51,857 bases of DNA. Origin: Candidatus Rokuibacteriota bacterium. Its GTDB lineage: Bacteria > Methylomirabilota > Methylomirabilia > Rokubacteriales > CSP1-6. Positions 32,153-39,841 of this stretch are shown here, one piece after another. The notes beneath the pieces were generated by a model. That model was not told the origin of the DNA. It saw only the letters and a program-made list of their open reading frames with translations, and searched no databases. The number at the start of each line of letters is the position of its first letter. Position 1 is the stretch's first letter. A program made the position numbers and the translations under genes. The DNA lies in NCBI GenBank assembly GCA_003220225.1, contig QHRU01000063.1, forward strand, positions 1-51,857. The letters run 5' to 3'.

Positions 32153-33558
32153 AGAGCCGGCCTCCGCGCGCTCCACGGCCGGGCCGCCTCGTACGCCGCG
32201 GCGGCGGCGAGCACCGCGCGGTCGGCGTGGCGGCGGCCGACGATCTGCAGCCCCACCGGCAGGCCGTCGGCCGTGAGGCCGGCGGGAACCGAGGCGGCCG
32301 GCTGGCCCGTGAGGTTGAACGGGTAGGTGAACGGCATCCAGCCCAGCACGGAGACGGACTCGCCGTCGATCTCGCGGGGCGGCCGGCCGTCGGCGGGGAA
32401 CGGGGCCACCGCCGTCGTCGGCGTCAGGAGGAAATCGAAGCGTTCGGAGAACGCGCGCACCTCCTCCCAGTACTCCGCCACGCGGGCGCGCGCGCGGAGG
32501 TAGTCTCGGGCGGTGATGCTGCCGCCGCGGCGGATGAACTTCACGAGCGTCGGGTCCAGGCGCTCCTCGGCGGCCGGCAGCTCGTCCGACCACGCGGCGT
32601 AGAACTGCGCCGCGATCAGCGTGCTGAACGCCTCCTCGAGGTTCTCCCAGCCGGGGTTGACGACTTCCACGTGGCAGCCGAGCGACTCGAACTCGGCAGC
32701 GGCATCGCCGGTGAGCTCGAGCACCTCGGGATCGACGCGCGCGAAGCCGAGGTCCGGCGCCCACGCGACGTTGAGGCCCTTGATGCTGCCCGCGCATGCC
32801 TCGACGTAGGAGCCCGGCTCGCGCGGCAGCGACTCGCGGTCGCGGTCGTCGCCGCCCGCGATCACGTCGAGCACCGCCGCCGCGTCGCGCACGGTGCGCG
32901 CGAGCGGCCCGACGTGCGAGACGTGGTCCCAGCCCGGGAAGCCGGTGCCGAGCGGCACGCGGCCGTACGAGGGCTTCACGCCGACGAGCCCGCAGAACGC
33001 GGCCGGGATGCGCACGGAGCCGCCGCCGTCGCTGCCGAGCGCGATCGGGCCGCAGCCGCTCGCGACGGCCGCCGCCGCGCCGCCGCTGCTGCCGCCGGGC
33101 GTGCGCTCGAGGTTCCACGGATTGCGCGTCACGCCGAAGAGCGGGCTCTCGGTCACCGCCTTGTGGCCGAACTCGGACGTCGTCGTCTTGCCGAGGAGCA
33201 CCGCGCCCGCCGCCTTCAGCCGGCCCACGGACACCGCGTCGTGCTCGGGGATGAGGTCGGCGTAGAGCCTCGAGCCCCCGGTCGTGCGCATGCCGCGCGT
33301 GAAGAGCACGTCCTTCACCGACACCGGCACGCCGTGCAGCAGGCCGAGCGGCTCGCCCTTCATCACGGCGATCTCCGCCTCGCGCGCGAGGCGGCGCGCG
33401 ACGTCGTGCGCGACGAGAGCGAAGGCGTTGAGGCGGGGATTGACGGCGTCGATGCGCGCGAGAACCGCTTCGGTGAGCTCGACCGGCGACAGCTCCTTGC
33501 GCCGGATCAAGGCCGCGCACTCGACGGCCGAGCGCCAGACCACGTCGTCCGCGGCCAT
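32149..33558 (-). CDS. amidase (amidase-signature family)
   Basis: This encodes 469 residues from ATG 33558. The Ser-cisSer-Lys triad is visible: Lys in GVPVSVKDVLF, cis-Ser in the signature TPGGSSGGAAAAVASGCGP, and nucleophile Ser in LGSDGGGSVRIPAAFCG. The order of KELSPVELTEAVLARIDAVN at the N-terminus and PAASVPAGLTADGLPVGLQI at the C-terminus matches the GatA/amidase fold. Without GatB and GatC beside it, a general amide hydrolase (for example aryl or aliphatic amides) is more likely than the tRNA amidotransferase subunit. Its substrate cannot be read from the sequence. Confidence 0.9.
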   Translation of the reverse strand: MAADDVVWRSAVECAALIRRKELSPVELTEAVLARIDAVNPRLNAFALVAHDVARRLAREAEIAVMKGEPLGLLHGVPVSVKDVLFTRGMRTTGGSRLYADLIPEHDAVSVGRLKAAGAVLLGKTTTSEFGHKAVTESPLFGVTRNPWNLERTPGGSSGGAAAAVASGCGPIALGSDGGGSVRIPAAFCGLVGVKPSYGRVPLGTGFPGWDHVSHVGPLARTVRDAAAVLDVIAGGDDRDRESLPREPGSYVEACAGSIKGLNVAWAPDLGFARVDPEVLELTGDAAAEFESLGCHVEVVNPGWENLEEAFSTLIAAQFYAAWSDELPAAEERLDPTLVKFIRRGGSITARDYLRARARVAEYWEEVRAFSERFDFLLTPTTAVAPFPADGRPPREIDGESVSVLGWMPFTYPFNLTGQPAASVPAGLTADGLPVGLQIVGRRHADRAVLAAAAAYEAARPWSARRPAL

Positions 33559-33598
33559 CGTCACGTCATCACCACCGCGGCATTGTATCATCCGCCCC

Positions 33599-34786
33599 GT
33601 GGCCGCCGACGCGACGCGGATGCGCCGCGACGCCGCCGGGCGCCCGGCCGGCGAGCAGGACCGCCACGGCTCCGCCCTGAGCGCGCTCGAGTGGTCGCCG
33701 GACGGGCGCCTGAGCCGCGCCTCCGTGCGGCTGCCCGACGGCGGCTGGGTCTCGATCGAGCCCGGCGCCGGCGCGGCGGGGCCGTGGGGCGCCTCCGATC
33801 TCGTGACGCGCGACGGCCGGCCCCTCACCCGCCTGGCCGCGCTCGACTGGGCGCGCGTGGATCGCATCCCTCCGCTTGCCGAGCCCGCGCGGCTGCCCGC
33901 CGGCGCGGGGACGGCGATCTTCAATCTGCTCGCGCGCCTCGCCGCCGAGCAGGGCGTGGCCGTGCTCCGCTACGACGCGCCCTACCCGACGGAGGCGCTC
34001 TTCCTGGCGCTCCTCGAATCGTTCCGCTACGTCCCCGAGGAGGCGCCGAATCCGATGGACGCGTTCGCGCGCGGCGAGCTCGGATGGGCGCCGGCGCCGC
34101 ACGACGTCGCGATCGAGGCGGGTGGCGTCTGGGTTCAGCGGCGGGAGCGTGTCGAAAAAGTCGTCGGCGCGGGCCGCGTGTACTACCGGCCGGACTGGCA
34201 GGGCGTGCGACGTGTGGCGCCGCGCGCCGTCCGCGACGCCGGCGACACCGTGCGCGCCTCGCTGGTGGCGCTCGGCCGCGTGCTCGAGGACCATGTCGTC
34301 CTGAGATCCGACGGCGGCCTCCTCGAGGTCCGGACGCCGCCGTCGGATCCGCCGCAGATCGCGCCGGTGGCGCCCGAGGTCGTCGCCGGGCTCGTCGCGA
34401 CGGTCGTGGCCACCAGCGCGCCCGCGCTGGCGCCGTGGATCGCGGGCGTGGCGCGCGACGTCGAGTTCCAGTGGGGGCCGGTGCACGCCGATCTCGTGGA
34501 GGTGCGCGACGCGCGCGTCAGGCTGTCTCACCGGCTGCGACGCGCGCTGGGAGACGCCGTGCGCGGCCGGTCGCGCGCCGACGCGCTCGCCACGGGCCTC
34601 GCCGCGCTTCGCGAGGCGGCCGACCTCGTCGCCGACGGCCTGCGCGCGCGCGCTCAGGGGGCGCTCGCCGCCGAGCCCGCGGACGTGCAAGTCGCCGCGC
34701 TGGAGCGCGCCGGGCCGCCGGCGGCCGACGCGCGCGCCATCGCCGCCGCCGCCGAGGCCCTGGCGCGAGAAGCCGCGAGAGGATGA
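33599..34786 (+). CDS. uncharacterised protein
   Basis: This encodes 395 residues from GTG 33599 or 388 from ATG 33620. I do not recognise the family. Features are an N-terminal beta-rich segment (ALEWSPDGRLSRASVRLPDG), a central part YDAPYPTEALFLALLESFRY then GVWVQRRERVEKVVGAGRVY, and a C-terminal Ala/Arg-rich helical region, probably coiled coil. No signal peptide or membrane helix is seen. It diverges from the amidase gene with a 40-base gap holding TATCAT seven bases before the GTG, consistent with a leaderless transcript. Codon use matches the neighbours, so it is probably a resident gene of the lineage. Confidence 0.6.
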   Translation: MAADATRMRRDAAGRPAGEQDRHGSALSALEWSPDGRLSRASVRLPDGGWVSIEPGAGAAGPWGASDLVTRDGRPLTRLAALDWARVDRIPPLAEPARLPAGAGTAIFNLLARLAAEQGVAVLRYDAPYPTEALFLALLESFRYVPEEAPNPMDAFARGELGWAPAPHDVAIEAGGVWVQRRERVEKVVGAGRVYYRPDWQGVRRVAPRAVRDAGDTVRASLVALGRVLEDHVVLRSDGGLLEVRTPPSDPPQIAPVAPEVVAGLVATVVATSAPALAPWIAGVARDVEFQWGPVHADLVEVRDARVRLSHRLRRALGDAVRGRSRADALATGLAALREAADLVADGLRARAQGALAAEPADVQVAALERAGPPAADARAIAAAAEALAREAARG

Positions 34787-34790
34787 CCGC

Positions 34791-34928
34791 GGCGCGCCCC
34801 GATTCATTCGGGGCGCCCCGAGCGTTGGGGGGGTCGAGGCGCGCCCCGATTCATTCGGGGCGCGACGAGCGTTGGGGGGGGGTCGAGGCGCGCCCCGATT
34901 CATTCGGGGCGCGACGAGTGTTGGGGGG
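34791..34928. repeat. three tandem 47-49-bp units, each with a hairpin
   Basis: Units at 34791-34837, 34838-34886 and 34887-34928 each contain CGCCCCGA-TTCA-TTCGGGGCG followed by GACGAG(C/T)GTTGGGGGG. They start just after a stop codon and lie between two convergent genes. Unit 3 merges into the terminator hairpin. Confidence 0.85.
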
Positions 34929-34958: not shown

Positions 34959-36191
34959 TCAGGACGCGTGTACGACGAGCCAGACGTTGAAGGTGATGAA
35001 GGCGAGCACGGAGACGGTCGAGACCAGGACGTAACCGGCGAACAGCGCCTCCTGCCGCGTGAAGCGGAGCGACGCGCGGCCGCGCAGCAGCGAGCCGGCG
35101 TAGGCGATGGCGTCGTGCTTGAGCGTCGGGAGGCCGAGCACGTCCACCAGCACGTGGTAGCCGTCCATCTCGATGAAGCAGAACGGGTAGAGCGCGACCA
35201 CGAACGCCTGCCACTGGATGATCCCCGAGGCGGCGGCGAACGCTTGCAGGAACGACCCCATCGGCGCGCGGAGCGCGATGAGGAGCCACGCCGAGCCGAA
35301 GACGAGGTGCACGAGCGCGCCCGACACCGCCGTCACCACGCGCGCCCGGCGGCTGCCCATGAAGATGTCGGTGACGTCCACGTAGAAGGTCGGCACGAAG
35401 CCGTGCAGGAACGTGAAGCCGAACTCGCGCACGCGCCGGCCGTAGTGGATGAGCGCGAGCCCGTGCACGAGCTGGTGGGCGCCGACCGTGAGCAGGAACA
35501 GCAGCTTGACGGAGATCACCGCCATCAGCGGGCTCTTGCCGAAGCCCGAGACGACCCGCTCGGCGTCCGGCCAGAGCCGCACGCCGGCCGCGACGCCGAC
35601 GATGGCGAGCAGCACGCACGCCAGCGCCGCCCCGCGCGTGAAGATGAGGAACCCGCCCCAGCGGTAGATGCCGCGGAAGACCGGCTGCACGTTGCGGCTC
35701 GAGATGTTGATGCGCTCGAGCGCGAACAGCGCGGACTCCGCCATCTTGGCGACGGGCTGGCGGCGGTTGCGGGCGAGCGCCTGCCGCAGGCGCGACGTCG
35801 GCGTCATGGTCAGCAGCTGCGCGCGTTGCAGCTTGCGGATCAGGTTCGGGATGATCTCGAAGTCGAACTCGCCGTAGCGCAGCACGTACGCCGTCGCGAT
35901 GTCTTGCAGCGACGTCCGGCCGTTCATCTGCTCCCACAGGAACTTCTCGTGCTCGGACAGGAGCAGGAAGCGGTCGGTCGCCGTGTTCTTGAGGATGAAG
36001 GAGCGCTGGCGGTCCACCTTCGAGGCGACCTCGGCCAGCTCGAACGAGCCCGCGGACACGCGCGCGGGCCGCGACTGGATGAAGGCAACGCCGCTGCCGA
36101 TCTGGCGGACTTCGAACCCGTCGCCCTCCTCGGGTCGGACGAGCAGCTCCAGGCGCGCGCGTCGCGGCGGCGCGGTGGAGCCCTCGCTCAT
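34959..36191 (-). CDS. PqqD/RRE-like domain fused to a catalytically altered M50 (site-2-protease-like) membrane protein
   Basis: This encodes 410 residues. Residues about 65-130 (FILKNTATDRFLLLSEHEKF, LWEQMNGRTSLQDIATAYVL, IRKLQRAQLL) have the winged-helix pattern of PqqD-type peptide-recognition domains. Six or so membrane helices follow. VGAHQLVHGLALIHYGRRVR occupies the place of HExxHxxxA in M50 peptidases, but the catalytic Glu is Gln (HQLVH). FLHGFVPTFYVDVTDIF and EMDGYHVLVDVLGLPTL match the downstream family motifs, the Asp of DGY being kept. Intact relatives are peptide metalloproteases associated with peptide export. It overlaps the cNMP-binding gene by four bases. Confidence 0.72.
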   Translation of the reverse strand: MSEGSTAPPRRARLELLVRPEEGDGFEVRQIGSGVAFIQSRPARVSAGSFELAEVASKVDRQRSFILKNTATDRFLLLSEHEKFLWEQMNGRTSLQDIATAYVLRYGEFDFEIIPNLIRKLQRAQLLTMTPTSRLRQALARNRRQPVAKMAESALFALERINISSRNVQPVFRGIYRWGGFLIFTRGAALACVLLAIVGVAAGVRLWPDAERVVSGFGKSPLMAVISVKLLFLLTVGAHQLVHGLALIHYGRRVREFGFTFLHGFVPTFYVDVTDIFMGSRRARVVTAVSGALVHLVFGSAWLLIALRAPMGSFLQAFAAASGIIQWQAFVVALYPFCFIEMDGYHVLVDVLGLPTLKHDAIAYAGSLLRGRASLRFTRQEALFAGYVLVSTVSVLAFITFNVWLVVHAS

Positions 36192-36688
36192 CGCGACTCG
36201 ACGTCCAGCCCGGTCGCCTCCAGACCCCAGCGAGTGACTTCGGCCACGAGGTCGCCGGAGGCGCGCAGACGCTCGATGAAGATGAGGACGAGCGACTCGA
36301 AGAAGGCAGCGGCCGCGCGCGGGCTCACCTCGGTCAGCTTGGCGAGCGCGGCGCGGTCGAGCACGAGGAGCACGGCGTCATTGTCCGCCGAGATGGTGGC
36401 GGAGCGCGGCGAGCGGTCGAAGAGCGCCATCTCGCCGAAGAAATCGCCGGGCCCGACGCGCGCCAGCACCTGCTCGACGCGGCCGGTCACGGCCTTGGAG
36501 ATGACGAGCGAGCCCGAGCGTACGAGGAACATCTCGTCGCCGGCGTCACCCTCGCGCAGCAGGACCTGGCCGCGCTTGAGCGCACGCTCGCGCAGGCTGT
36601 CGGCGAGGATCCCGAGCTCGGGCCCTTCGACGTTGCGGAACAGACGCACGCTCCTCAGGAAGACCTGCGTGTCGGCCGAGCTGCCCAC
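36188..36688 (-). CDS. cyclic nucleotide-binding domain protein
   Basis: This encodes 166 residues, GTG start. A single cNMP-binding fold: LKRGQVLLREGDAGDEMFLV, RSGSLVISK, and the phosphate-binding cassette VGPGDFFGEMALFDRSPRSA with the conserved Glu and Arg. There is no HTH, so it is not a CRP-type repressor but a stand-alone sensor. It sits between the small NHLP-like gene and the PqqD-M50 gene and overlaps the latter as ATGA. In NHLM peptide-export systems the exporter ATPases carry such cNMP domains, so a link to peptide handling is plausible by analogy. Confidence 0.85.
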   Translation of the reverse strand: MGSSADTQVFLRSVRLFRNVEGPELGILADSLRERALKRGQVLLREGDAGDEMFLVRSGSLVISKAVTGRVEQVLARVGPGDFFGEMALFDRSPRSATISADNDAVLLVLDRAALAKLTEVSPRAAAAFFESLVLIFIERLRASGDLVAEVTRWGLEATGLDVESR

Positions 36689-36709
36689 CGCGCGGGGATC
36701 CCGCGTCGC

Positions 36710-36928
36710 CTAGGTGGCCACGCGTCGGATCAGGGCGCTGCGCAGCGCCGTGGCGCGCTGACCTGCCGAGGTCTGGCCCAGGCGGGCGAGCGCGGCGAGC
36801 ACGGTCGCGCGCTCGTCGTCGGTCAGGTCGTACTCGGCGAGGATCGAGTCGGGCGCGCGCTGGAGATCGGCGAGGAACTCGGGATCGATCATCACGCGGC
36901 CGACCAACTCGGGGAGTCGCTGAGCCAT
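36710..36928 (-). CDS. small protein resembling NHLP-clan RiPP precursor leaders
   Basis: This encodes 72 residues. The first 50 (LPELVGRVMIDPEFLADLQR, APDSILAEYDLTDDERATVL) follow the pattern of Os1348/Franean1_4349-type leader peptides of the nitrile-hydratase-leader clan: a helix, DPEF, a helix ending in xxYDLTxxE. The remainder (SAGQRATALRSALIRRVAT) has Ser and Thr but no Cys and no GG cleavage motif, so a modified core is not obvious. TATGAT lies nine bases before the ATG with no Shine-Dalgarno. It could be a precursor peptide or a partner recognised by the PqqD-like domain; neither is proven. Confidence 0.6.
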   Translation of the reverse strand: MAQRLPELVGRVMIDPEFLADLQRAPDSILAEYDLTDDERATVLAALARLGQTSAGQRATALRSALIRRVAT

Positions 36929-36937
36929 GGCGCCCGG

Positions 36938-36943
36938 ATCATA
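36938..36943 (-). promoter_or_regulatory. -10 element of the small-peptide operon
   Basis: TATGAT on the minus strand, nine bases before the ATG, overlapping the stop region of the YfhO gene. No -35 hexamer is recognisable. Confidence 0.4.
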
Positions 36944-39841
36944 TCAGAGTGGCCGGGGCCGAGGAAGGTCCCGTCCCCACGCCAGCGCCGTCGCGGCGAC
37001 GGCGGCCAGGAGCAGCCCCGTCAGCGTCGTCCACGGGCGCGGCGGACGCGCGCCCGGCGGCGCGGTCACGCGGACGGTCGCCAGCGCCGGCTGGTGGGTC
37101 CACTCGGCGCGGTCGAGCGGATCCGCGCCCGGACGCACGACCACGAGCGCGAGCGTCACGTCCGCCGGCGGCCCCGCGCGGCTCCAGGCGCCGCGCACGC
37201 GCTCCCCCGCCGCCAGCCGCGCGCGGAACGGGACGGGCTGCTGCGCCCACGCGCCATCGGGACCGAGGAACGCGGCGCGCTCGGAGAAGAGCCACACGAC
37301 GTACACGTCCCACGGCCCGCCCGTCGCCGCGCGCGGCCTGAGGCCGATCTCGACCGTGTCGCCCGCGCTCACCGAGGAGGGCGTCGCCGTCAGCACGAAC
37401 GGCGGCGCGGGCAGCGCCGCCTCCGCCCGCGTCGACGCGAGCAGCAGCACGGCCGTGGTGATCGCGGCGGCGGCGCGGCGACGCGGCAGAAGGAGGACGC
37501 CGAGGATCGCGAGCGCCGCGAGCGAGATCGCCACGCCCGGCCGCAGACCGCGCGGCGTGAACGCGAACTCGACCTCGTGACGCCCTGGCGGCAGCGCGAC
37601 GGCGCGGAAGGCGTGGTCGGCGCGCTGGACGGCGACGTCGGCGCCGTCGAGCCGCGCGCGCCAGCCCGGGAACCACGTGTCGGTGAGCACGAGCCACGCC
37701 GGCGCACCGGTGGACGCGGAGACGACGACGCGCGCGGGCTCGTCGACCATGATGCGCGCCTCCGGCGCAGCCATTGCAGTCCGCGCCTCCGGCCCAGTCA
37801 TTGCAGTCCGCGCCTCCGGCGCAGTCATTGCAGTCCGCACCTCCGGCGCAGTCGAACGCGGCGGCGAGGCGCAGTCGGCCAGCAGCACCTCCGCCGCTGG
37901 CGCGAGAGAGCGCGCGCGCAGCAGCGCCAGCGCGCCGCGATCGTCGACGCAACGGGCGCGCGGGACGACGAACGCGCGCGGCAGCGCCGCCGGGTCCTCG
38001 ACCACGCGCGCGTCGGCGCCGTCGTAGACCGGCCGCAGCCGCGGCTCCGCCGCCGTCATCCCGGGCGGCAACACGAGGAAGCGCACACCCAGCAGCTCGC
38101 GCGTCGGCGCCAGGAGCACGGCGATCGGCGGCAGCGGCTCGCTGCCGTGCAGCGCGATCGTGTTCTCGCGATAGCCGGCGGCGAGCGCGCGGCCGGTGCC
38201 GATGGGCCCGGCCAGCTCGGCGATGCGCCGCGGCGAGAGCCCGTCGTAGCCGTGCGCCTGGCGCAGGCCGTAGAGAAGGCCGACCTGATCGGCGATGAGA
38301 ACACGCGCGGAGCCGGCGTGATCGCGGAGCCACGCGATCGCCGGCGGCGTCGGATAGAGCCAGCGCGCGTCGCGGACCGGCAGGTAGGTCGCCAGCGGCG
38401 CCAGCGTCGCCACCTGCACGGCGGCGAGCGCCACGCCCCAGCGCGCGCGGCCGTCGACGAGCCAGCGCCGCAGAAGCCACGCGGCGGCGGTGAGCCCGAC
38501 GAGCATGCCGACGTACTGCGCGGCGAGCGACGGCCGCACGGCGAGCGTGGCGGGCTCGACCGAGGCGAGCGTCACCGCCACCAGTCCCGCCCCCGCGAGC
38601 GCCATGAACCCGCCACGCAGCCACGCGAGCGCGCGCGGGCCCGCGTCGCCGCGCGCCACGGAGTCGACGCCGAGGGCGCCGAGCGTGGCCAGCGCGAAGA
38701 CGAGGATCGGCATCAGGCGCAGGTTGCTCCCGAACGCGATCACCGGCGCCGGCGCCACCGCGGCGAGCGCGCCGTAGTGGATGAGGCCGGCGATCACGGC
38801 GAGGCCGGCGAAGAAGCGCGTCGGCGGCCGGCGCCACGCCAGCGCCGCCAGCGGCAGCGCGGCGAGTGGAACCAGCCCCACGTAGGTGGACGTGATGTTG
38901 AACTGCCACGTGGACCACGTGCCCTCGGCGGTGCCGAAGAAGTACGGCATGAGCACGGTCACGAGCGCGCGCGGCGGCACCGAGAGCGGCGGGGTCCACG
39001 TGCTGCGAAAGGCGTAGACGGCGCTCTCGCGCGCGTAGTCGAGCGCGGGCAGCGCCTGCACCGCCGTCAGCGCGCCCCCGAGGGTCACGCCGGCGGCGAC
39101 GCGCGCCAGGAACGGCCCCGCGCCCGCGCGCCAGGGCGCGCGGGCGACCGCCCACGCCACGATGGCGGCGAGCGCCTGGAGCGCCGCCTGCGGGTAGCCG
39201 GCCACGAGGTCCAGCGCGACCGCGAGCGCCAGCAGCGCGACGAGGCGGCGGTCCCCGCGCGCGCGCAGGCGGTCGACGAGACCTGCGAGCAGCGGCAGGA
39301 ACGGCATCGTGCTGGCGAGCGTCCACGGCAGCCAGGCGATCAGCGTCGTCGACAGCATGAAGCCCGCGGCGCCCACGAACGCGGCGAGCGGCAGCAGCGC
39401 CAGCCCGCGCAGGAACCAGTACGTCGCCAGCCCCGCGGCGATCAGCTTGAGCAGCGCGGGCACGGTGAGCGCCCACGTCGGCGGCAGCGCCCACGCCAGC
39501 CACGTGAGCGGGAACACGCAGGCGGTCTGCGGATTCGAGAAGAACGGCGCGCCGGCGTACGCGTACGGGTTCCAGAGCGGCACGCGCCCCGCGCGGACCT
39601 CGTGGGCGGCCCACAGCGTCCACGGATGAAAGACCGACGTGACGTCGCCGAGCGCCTGGTTGGGCCGCACGGGGCCCGGCGCGATCGCGCGCCACGGCGC
39701 GCTCGTGAAGAGGTTGTCGAGCGGCGAGAGCGTGTGACCCGGACGCAGCGCCGGGGCCCAGAGCACGAGCGGCAGCACGACGAGAACGGCCACGGCCGCG
39801 CGGTCGGGGTGCCGCCGGAGGAGGGCCCCGAGCGCGGTCAT
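36944..39841 (-). CDS. YfhO family membrane protein
   Basis: This encodes 965 residues. The N-terminal half contains about a dozen membrane helices with family hallmarks: FTSAPWRAIAP, DVTSVFHPWTLWAAHEVRAG, VPLWNPYAYAGAPFFSNPQT (the WNPY...G.P motif) and VLMPYFFGTAEGTW. A large periplasmic beta-rich part and one C-terminal helix follow (ATALAWGRD end). Firmicute YfhO attaches sugars to lipoteichoic acid; diderm relatives are GT-C-like glycosyltransferases of unknown product. A degenerate nine-residue repeat (APEARTAMT) lies at about residue 665-695. TACCAT six bases before the ATG suggests a leaderless start. Confidence 0.82.
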   Translation of the reverse strand: MTALGALLRRHPDRAAVAVLVVLPLVLWAPALRPGHTLSPLDNLFTSAPWRAIAPGPVRPNQALGDVTSVFHPWTLWAAHEVRAGRVPLWNPYAYAGAPFFSNPQTACVFPLTWLAWALPPTWALTVPALLKLIAAGLATYWFLRGLALLPLAAFVGAAGFMLSTTLIAWLPWTLASTMPFLPLLAGLVDRLRARGDRRLVALLALAVALDLVAGYPQAALQALAAIVAWAVARAPWRAGAGPFLARVAAGVTLGGALTAVQALPALDYARESAVYAFRSTWTPPLSVPPRALVTVLMPYFFGTAEGTWSTWQFNITSTYVGLVPLAALPLAALAWRRPPTRFFAGLAVIAGLIHYGALAAVAPAPVIAFGSNLRLMPILVFALATLGALGVDSVARGDAGPRALAWLRGGFMALAGAGLVAVTLASVEPATLAVRPSLAAQYVGMLVGLTAAAWLLRRWLVDGRARWGVALAAVQVATLAPLATYLPVRDARWLYPTPPAIAWLRDHAGSARVLIADQVGLLYGLRQAHGYDGLSPRRIAELAGPIGTGRALAAGYRENTIALHGSEPLPPIAVLLAPTRELLGVRFLVLPPGMTAAEPRLRPVYDGADARVVEDPAALPRAFVVPRARCVDDRGALALLRARSLAPAAEVLLADCASPPRSTAPEVRTAMTAPEARTAMTGPEARTAMAAPEARIMVDEPARVVVSASTGAPAWLVLTDTWFPGWRARLDGADVAVQRADHAFRAVALPPGRHEVEFAFTPRGLRPGVAISLAALAILGVLLLPRRRAAAAITTAVLLLASTRAEAALPAPPFVLTATPSSVSAGDTVEIGLRPRAATGGPWDVYVVWLFSERAAFLGPDGAWAQQPVPFRARLAAGERVRGAWSRAGPPADVTLALVVVRPGADPLDRAEWTHQPALATVRVTAPPGARPPRPWTTLTGLLLAAVAATALAWGRDLPRPRPL
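37757..37852. repeat. 27-bp tandem repeat inside the YfhO gene
   Basis: About 3.5 copies of a 27-base unit encode PEVRTAMTA, PEARTAMTG, PEARTAMAA, PEARIM. The frame is preserved because the unit is a multiple of three. The repeat sits in the extracytoplasmic domain just before a beta strand. Confidence 0.85.

Follow-up and report, generated by a model that had tools for sequence, protein, structure and literature searches.

RRE domains, peptides of the NHLP clan and S2P proteases linked to an RRE serve as markers for pathways that make peptide natural products, and the three genes described here combine features of all of them. The window, i.e. the whole stretch of 51,857 nucleotides analysed, lies within the 6.0-Mb, 97% complete metagenome-assembled genome (MAG) of a member of the Rokubacteria (Methylomirabilota), uncultured bacteria of soil. 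Closely related loci were found in MAGs of Candidatus Rokuibacteriota / Methylomirabilota.

Organization of the locus

The three co-directional genes noticed in a preliminary description, the last two overlapping by 4 bases (36188-36191), are present as described (Table 1) and are hereafter called the trio. Their order is constant in the orthologous loci, most of which also share the 4-bp overlap between the cNMP and M50 genes, and the spacing between the 72-aa gene and the cNMP gene is mostly 13-22 bp.

Table 1. Features of the trio locus and its surroundings, in window coordinates
Feature	Position	Strand	Remarks
Os1348/NHLP-clan small helical protein, 72 aa	36928-36710	minus	no core peptide, no Cys
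Single-domain cNMP-binding protein, 166 aa	36688-36188	minus	GTG start; PF00027 9e-24
RRE (PqqD-like) + M50/S2P putative membrane pseudoprotease, 410 aa	36191-34959	minus	AlphaFold2, Foldseek, NCBIfam
PqqD/RRE-type winged-helix domain (predicted), residues ~61-130	35802..36011	minus	model, Foldseek, conservation
HQLVH motif, H239/Q240/H243	35463..35477	minus	Gln in place of catalytic Glu
Re-entrant beta-hairpin region, residues 251-280	35352..35441	minus	conservation; substrate clamp in SpoIVFB
EMDGYH motif, residues 341-346, third zinc ligand D343	35154..35171	minus	conservation
Extended -10 element TGA-TATGAT	36938..36946	minus	9 nt before ATG of 72-aa gene
Tandem PEARTAM-type peptide repeats	about 37770-37850	minus	within YfhO-like membrane protein
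Three 49-nt direct repeats	34780-34924		between trio and convergent gene
Convergent ORF	33476-34786	plus	no Pfam match

The trio is preceded by an extended -10 element, the first base of its TATGAT box being at 36943, which is also the end coordinate given in the preliminary description. The pattern TGnTA[T/G]nAT, whose background frequency is 0.19%, was found at most 30 nt upstream of the 72-aa start in 28 of the 34 orthologous loci, the distance to the start codon being 6-10 nt. Since a box so placed makes transcription likely to start at or beside the start codon, the arrangement implies that the mRNA of the trio would be leaderless or nearly leaderless. Three loci without the extended -10 box carry a tRNA-Glu (ttc) upstream of the 72-aa gene (L062:3140-3218, L063:5158-5236 and L065:3914-3992), about 20-25 nt from it in L063 and L065 and about 2 kb in L062.

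Each of the 49-nt direct repeats downstream of the trio contains the palindrome CGCCCCGAATGAATCGGGGCG; only four copies of the repeat exist genome-wide (at most 1 mismatch), three of them in this array, which is possibly a bidirectional terminator array. The convergent ORF on the far side accompanies the trio in 23 of 34 loci, as judged by clustering, while the tandem PEARTAM-type repeats are found upstream of the operon. Pfam scanning identified YfhO, amidase, VTT, DAHP synthase and TonB proteins as neighbours of the trio.

Distribution and inheritance

Orthologues of the 410-aa protein were found in 55 of the 57 genomes of the GTDB family, one of them split across two contig ends. A search of 56 family genomes with all three queries, i.e. 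the 72-aa profile, the cNMP profile and the cNMP tail pattern, gave matches in 54 genomes for each. The neighbourhoods bear out the early view of the three genes as one operon: they are conserved together, as a single-copy unit, in 54 of 56 family genomes, and such a recurrence, with gene order unchanged, goes far beyond chance. The two family genomes without it, G066 (82% complete) and G078 (a small 1.7-Mb assembly), miss all three genes, and, at the thresholds used, the 38 other genomes searched in the phylum yielded no trio gene.

In most loci the downstream genes are the convergent ORF, amidase, VTT, DAHP synthase and TonB. Because this set recurs in most loci, the trio is a vertically inherited core locus rather than a mobile cluster of biosynthetic genes. 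The pairwise distances measured for each of the three proteins are correlated with one another (r 0.75-0.90), as expected from shared descent. All three genes show dN < dS in the pairs compared, and conservation of the trio persists down to 46-50% protein identity. A mobile or phage-borne unit was also considered and was rejected, as no relative was found among viral contigs and synteny is fixed; plasmids contained only distant relatives of the M50 protein, with HExxH in the five read.

Architecture of the membrane protein

The AlphaFold2 model of the 410-aa protein (pLDDT 75.8) consists of a low-confidence N-terminus, an RRE-like winged-helix domain and a helical core, in which a beta-hairpin is placed between two helices. 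The predicted RRE domain is built of strands, then three helices, then one more strand, and has a mean column identity of 0.79. In Foldseek comparisons the model matched the RRE of TbiB1 (probability 1.00), a lasso-peptide RRE whose structure was solved with its leader, and, through the S2P core, M. jannaschii S2P (mjS2P, 0.98) and the SpoIVFB:pro-sigmaK complex (0.91), all with modest E-values (0.03-0.11, none <=0.001). Both assignments agree with NCBIfam matches to the daptide protein MpaP and to LiaK/YydH, obtained for 35 of 35 members. The fusion of a PqqD-like domain to an M50 protein, proposed from the sequence, is therefore supported, and its PqqD fold survived structure prediction.

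Matches of the window protein to Pfam models are sub-threshold, both for DUF3267 (0.0012) and for PqqD (0.07), and the match to the NCBIfam model daptide_HExxH (1.2e-26) scores 93.8 bits against a curated cut-off of 300; comparison of the M50 profile with PDB sequences gave no match. An RRE fused N-terminally to an S2P/M50 core is the architecture found in the 410-aa protein. Winged helices like those of RREs are also known from proteins outside RiPP pathways (PMC7470986).

Loss of the catalytic residues

The catalytic HExxH, which defines an active RRE-S2P leader peptidase, is absent from the 410-aa protein. The replacement of Glu and the retention of the Asp motif, both already noticed, were seen as H239-Q-L-V-H243 and E-M-D343-G-Y-H, and the Glu-to-Gln change proved universal in the clade, with HQxxH in 42 of 42 distinct orthologues. 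HExxH is present in all 23 relatives outside the trio that were read: 18 of these come from the phylum, one of them being encoded by this very genome, and the other 5 are plasmid-borne. The zinc-ligand residues H239, H243 and D343 are invariant among trio orthologues, and E[M/V]DGYH was found in all 43 distinct sequences that hold the region. An Asn-containing motif, NxxP..DGY, is present in all 23 relatives read; in the trio proteins NxxP..DG is replaced by LYPFCFIEMDG, the sequence being LYPFCFIEMDGYH or close variants, with a 2-residue insertion. In a tree, trio proteins and relatives fall into distinct clades joined by a long stem, a pattern consistent with a single ancestral loss.

The beta-hairpin region is the most conserved segment of the protein (mean column identity 0.92, dN near 0). 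The region of the DG motif is almost equally conserved (0.91). In SpoIVFB the re-entrant loop gains a strand from the substrate, and the E44Q change wholly abolishes cleavage, the substrate complex remaining superimposable (PMC11486902). The simplest reading is that the 410-aa protein would bind without cutting. With its S2P fold retained under selection and its general base gone, it qualifies, as far as the alignments tell, as an S2P pseudoprotease.

The cyclic-nucleotide-binding protein

The 166-aa protein is composed of one CNB domain, with its phosphate-binding cassette, and has no DNA-binding domain; the lone cNMP-binding domain originally reported is thus confirmed, with the binding signature intact. 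The cassette residues G85, E86, R95 and A97 are invariant in 34 orthologues and PKA/PKG/CRP-type structures are among the best matches, which makes it likely that the protein binds cNMP. Class III adenylate/guanylate cyclases give 20 matches in this genome and as many as 39 in one family member, a large cyclic-nucleotide repertoire.

The model TIGR03896 (cyc_nuc_ocin) is matched by each of the 34 cNMP orthologues, with a best value of 1.7e-15, the window protein scoring far below the cut-off (47.5 vs 161 bits). The model offers a precedent for cNMP proteins located near bacteriocin-type transport, whereas the trio has no recognised exporter.

The tail of the protein, VAEVTRWGLEATGLD, is conserved, R153-G160 being invariant in the 34 orthologues. 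Its TRWGLEATGLD part is invariant or nearly so, and is common to longer stand-alone cNMP proteins in several genomes. A trio-specific docking role for this tail was rejected because these longer paralogues carry it. Stand-alone proteins of this kind (L106, L107, L109, L110) are ~240-260 aa long, have a TRWGLEATGLD-type tail and lie beside unrelated genes; most share an N-terminal region, LLFVVERxRP...LDRR.

The 72-residue protein

The family of the 72-aa protein matches NF038399 (Os1348 NHLP-clan) in 34 of 34 members, with a best value of 7.5e-11, and PF14407 (Frankia_peptide) in 33 of 34 (best 5.4e-9). The window protein itself matches the NCBIfam Os1348-family NHLP-clan model at 1.8e-7, with 31.1 bits against the curated cut-off of 40, which two orthologues exceed. 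The family profile also matches the chain of the Os1348 crystal structure, 6lk7 (1.8e-4). Five helices are predicted (pLDDT 78), and Foldseek matches are weak (best E 4.8, with 6lk7 top-ranked), so that the assignment to the clan rests on sequence profiles.

The gene had been described as coding for an NHLP-like leader protein. Membership of the clan stands, by virtue of the N-terminal region, but the family does not have the form of an ordinary RiPP precursor. Its length varies between 71 and 73 aa in 34 sequences. Their alignment is free of Cys and of GG sites and shows no hypervariable core; in particular, no such core follows a cleavage site, GG or similar. The C-terminal third is less conserved than the N-terminal two thirds, yet constrained, and purifying selection extends along the full length. 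An ordinary RiPP precursor with a normal core was accordingly rejected on the alignment, given the fixed length and the lack of a core region.

In these genomes, NHLP/Os1348 models are also matched, at LigB-like dioxygenase genes, by small proteins or protein regions of LigA-like type (L111:2669-2911, L112 and L114), hinting that NHLP-clan leaders and LigA may share a fold. Since models of the clan match LigA-like dioxygenase subunits too, the fold of the 72-aa protein need not mean a leader.

RiPP machinery

The window neighbours scanned include no recognised RiPP enzyme and no recognised C39-ABC exporter, in line with what had been reported from the sequence. A genome-wide survey for YcaO, LanB/PEARL-type proteins (Lant_dehydr_N) and C39 peptidase was applied to a sample of 24 family genomes: YcaO was found in 4 and C39 peptidase in 1, and Lant_dehydr_N in none, in a search run without positive control. 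Of the modifying and export proteins that go with a RiPP precursor, the families scanned were not recognised near the trio and are rare or undetected in the genomes.

Comparison with known systems

In the literature searched, no description was found of a fixed core operon that combines an NHLP-clan protein, a cNMP sensor and an RRE-S2P protein; several systems share parts of it. The closest in architecture is the daptide protein MpaP (NF041824), which has the same N-terminal RRE and S2P/M50 core and is matched by 35 of 35 trio members (best 1.3e-31). MpaP removes the leader in an RRE-dependent manner (PMC10036551). It has HExxH, as seen in a Streptomyces MpaP locus, and daptide enzymes adjoin it, whereas the trio has HQxxH and the window protein scores far below the cut-off, no daptide enzymes being found near it.

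The PqqD-M50(-HlyD) proteins of Rokubacteria and other phyla, one of which (L105) is encoded in the same genome, share with the trio protein the core, the re-entrant-loop sequence and the DGY motif. They differ from it in having HExxH and N-x-x-P in all cases read; many are longer, and the copy in the same genome has a C-terminal HlyD-like part. The plasmid loci read have no annotated cNMP or NHLP partner, unlike the trio.

The E44Q variant of SpoIVFB carries the identical Glu-to-Gln change, keeps its zinc ligands and matches in fold, but it is laboratory-made and bound to pro-sigmaK; SpoIVFB, moreover, carries a CBS domain where the trio protein carries an RRE. Plant EGY3 is, like the trio protein, an inactive S2P homologue kept by evolution, but it has no HExxH zinc-binding motif and no RRE, NHLP-clan or cNMP partner is described for it (PMC10978774).

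The small protein resembles Os1348/PosA of Pseudomonas, which is helical, belongs to the same NCBIfam/Pfam families and provides the nearest solved structure, 6lk7. In Os1348/PosA, a precursor of NHLP type, the C-terminal core is modified (PMC7726476, PMC12636437), and this is done by HEXXH and MNIO-nitroreductase enzymes (PMC12636437); neither a core nor such enzymes are seen with the 72-aa protein.

Proposed function and alternatives

The reading which we prefer, with a probability of about 0.4, is that the RRE pseudoprotease captures and holds the NHLP-clan protein at the membrane, uncut, and is gated by the cNMP partner. The operon would encode a peptide-holding module, anchored in the membrane and non-proteolytic. 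In it, the 410-aa protein would use its PqqD-like RRE to recognise the helical 72-aa protein at the membrane, and the inactive S2P cleft, in which zinc ligands and clamp loop are kept and Glu is changed to Gln, would hold this peptide, or another ligand, without cutting it. The translationally coupled cNMP protein may sit on the complex and may switch it between holding and releasing when cAMP or cGMP is supplied by the class III cyclases of the genome. For this reading speak the joint presence or absence of the trio, the universal HQxxH together with the conserved clamp loop, the SpoIVFB E44Q complex, the RRE-dependent leader removal by MpaP, the clan of the 72-aa protein, the invariant cassette residues and the cyclases; against it speak the score of the RRE region below the PqqD cut-off, the Foldseek E-values above 0.001, the winged helices of non-RiPP proteins, the tail shared with stand-alone cNMP proteins and the matches of NHLP-clan models to LigA-like subunits. 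A more specific proposal, put forward tentatively, is that the trio forms a bacterial signalling device, in which a leader-recognition domain and an inactivated site-2 protease make up a cNMP-gated receptor or trap whose ligand is a stand-alone leader-like protein, no peptide natural product being made.

Somewhat doubtful, yet the best of the alternatives, is a role of the pseudoprotease in chaperoning or stabilising other membrane proteins, as proposed for plant EGY3, its RRE binding an unrelated housekeeping peptide and the 72-aa protein acting as a helical subunit of LigA/Os1348-like type, either regulatory or an adaptor. Vertical inheritance of the locus, with downstream synteny fixed in most loci, and a small protein of fixed length without core peptide fit such a role; EGY3, an S2P pseudoprotease, stabilises other proteins (PMC10978774), and related small proteins in the same genomes adjoin LigB-like dioxygenases. 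However, an operon that brings together an NHLP-clan protein and an RRE domain resembles RRE-ligand pairs, and only 2 of 34 members of the 72-aa family match the LigA Pfam model (best 0.083), versus 34 of 34 for the Os1348 NHLP model.

It is unlikely that the trio belongs to a cryptic RiPP pathway, with the 72-aa protein as a pearlin- or daptide-like precursor or scaffold, modified in trans and escorted or exported by the M50 protein. Membership of the NHLP clan and the MpaP-like RRE-S2P architecture agree with this explanation, as do the C-terminal Thr found in all but two of the sampled intact orthologues, as in daptide precursors, and the pairing of constant scaffold peptides with M50 proteases in pearlins (PMC10885120). 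Against it stand the lack of hypervariable core, Cys and GG site, a C-terminal Met in one lineage, the HExxH kept by active relatives and the rarity of YcaO (4/24) and C39 (1/24) in the family, along with the absence of Lant_dehydr_N in the search without positive control.

Catalysis by the HQxxH protein through Gln or another residue, on a special substrate, might account for the invariance of the three zinc ligands; it is very improbable, as the same change abolishes cleavage by SpoIVFB and, in the trio proteins, the Asn of NxxP..DG is gone and two extra residues have been inserted at this site. That the trio is the decaying residue of an earlier system for peptide maturation, as suggested by the loss of the catalytic Glu and of the HlyD part present in relatives such as the paralogue in the same genome, can hardly be entertained, and decay was rejected in view of purifying selection in all three genes, fixed lengths, near-universal retention and conservation down to 46-50% protein identity.

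All the recognition parts are kept in the trio as core genes of the family; what is missing is the residue that cuts, together with the machinery that usually modifies and exports the peptide. If the preferred reading of a protein held uncut at the membrane is true, leader recognition would have been re-used for signalling or for the control of membrane proteins, and the 410-aa protein would represent in nature the kind of Glu-to-Gln variant that structural biologists construct deliberately. Genome mining based on RRE or NHLP models may then also flag systems which are not RiPP pathways.
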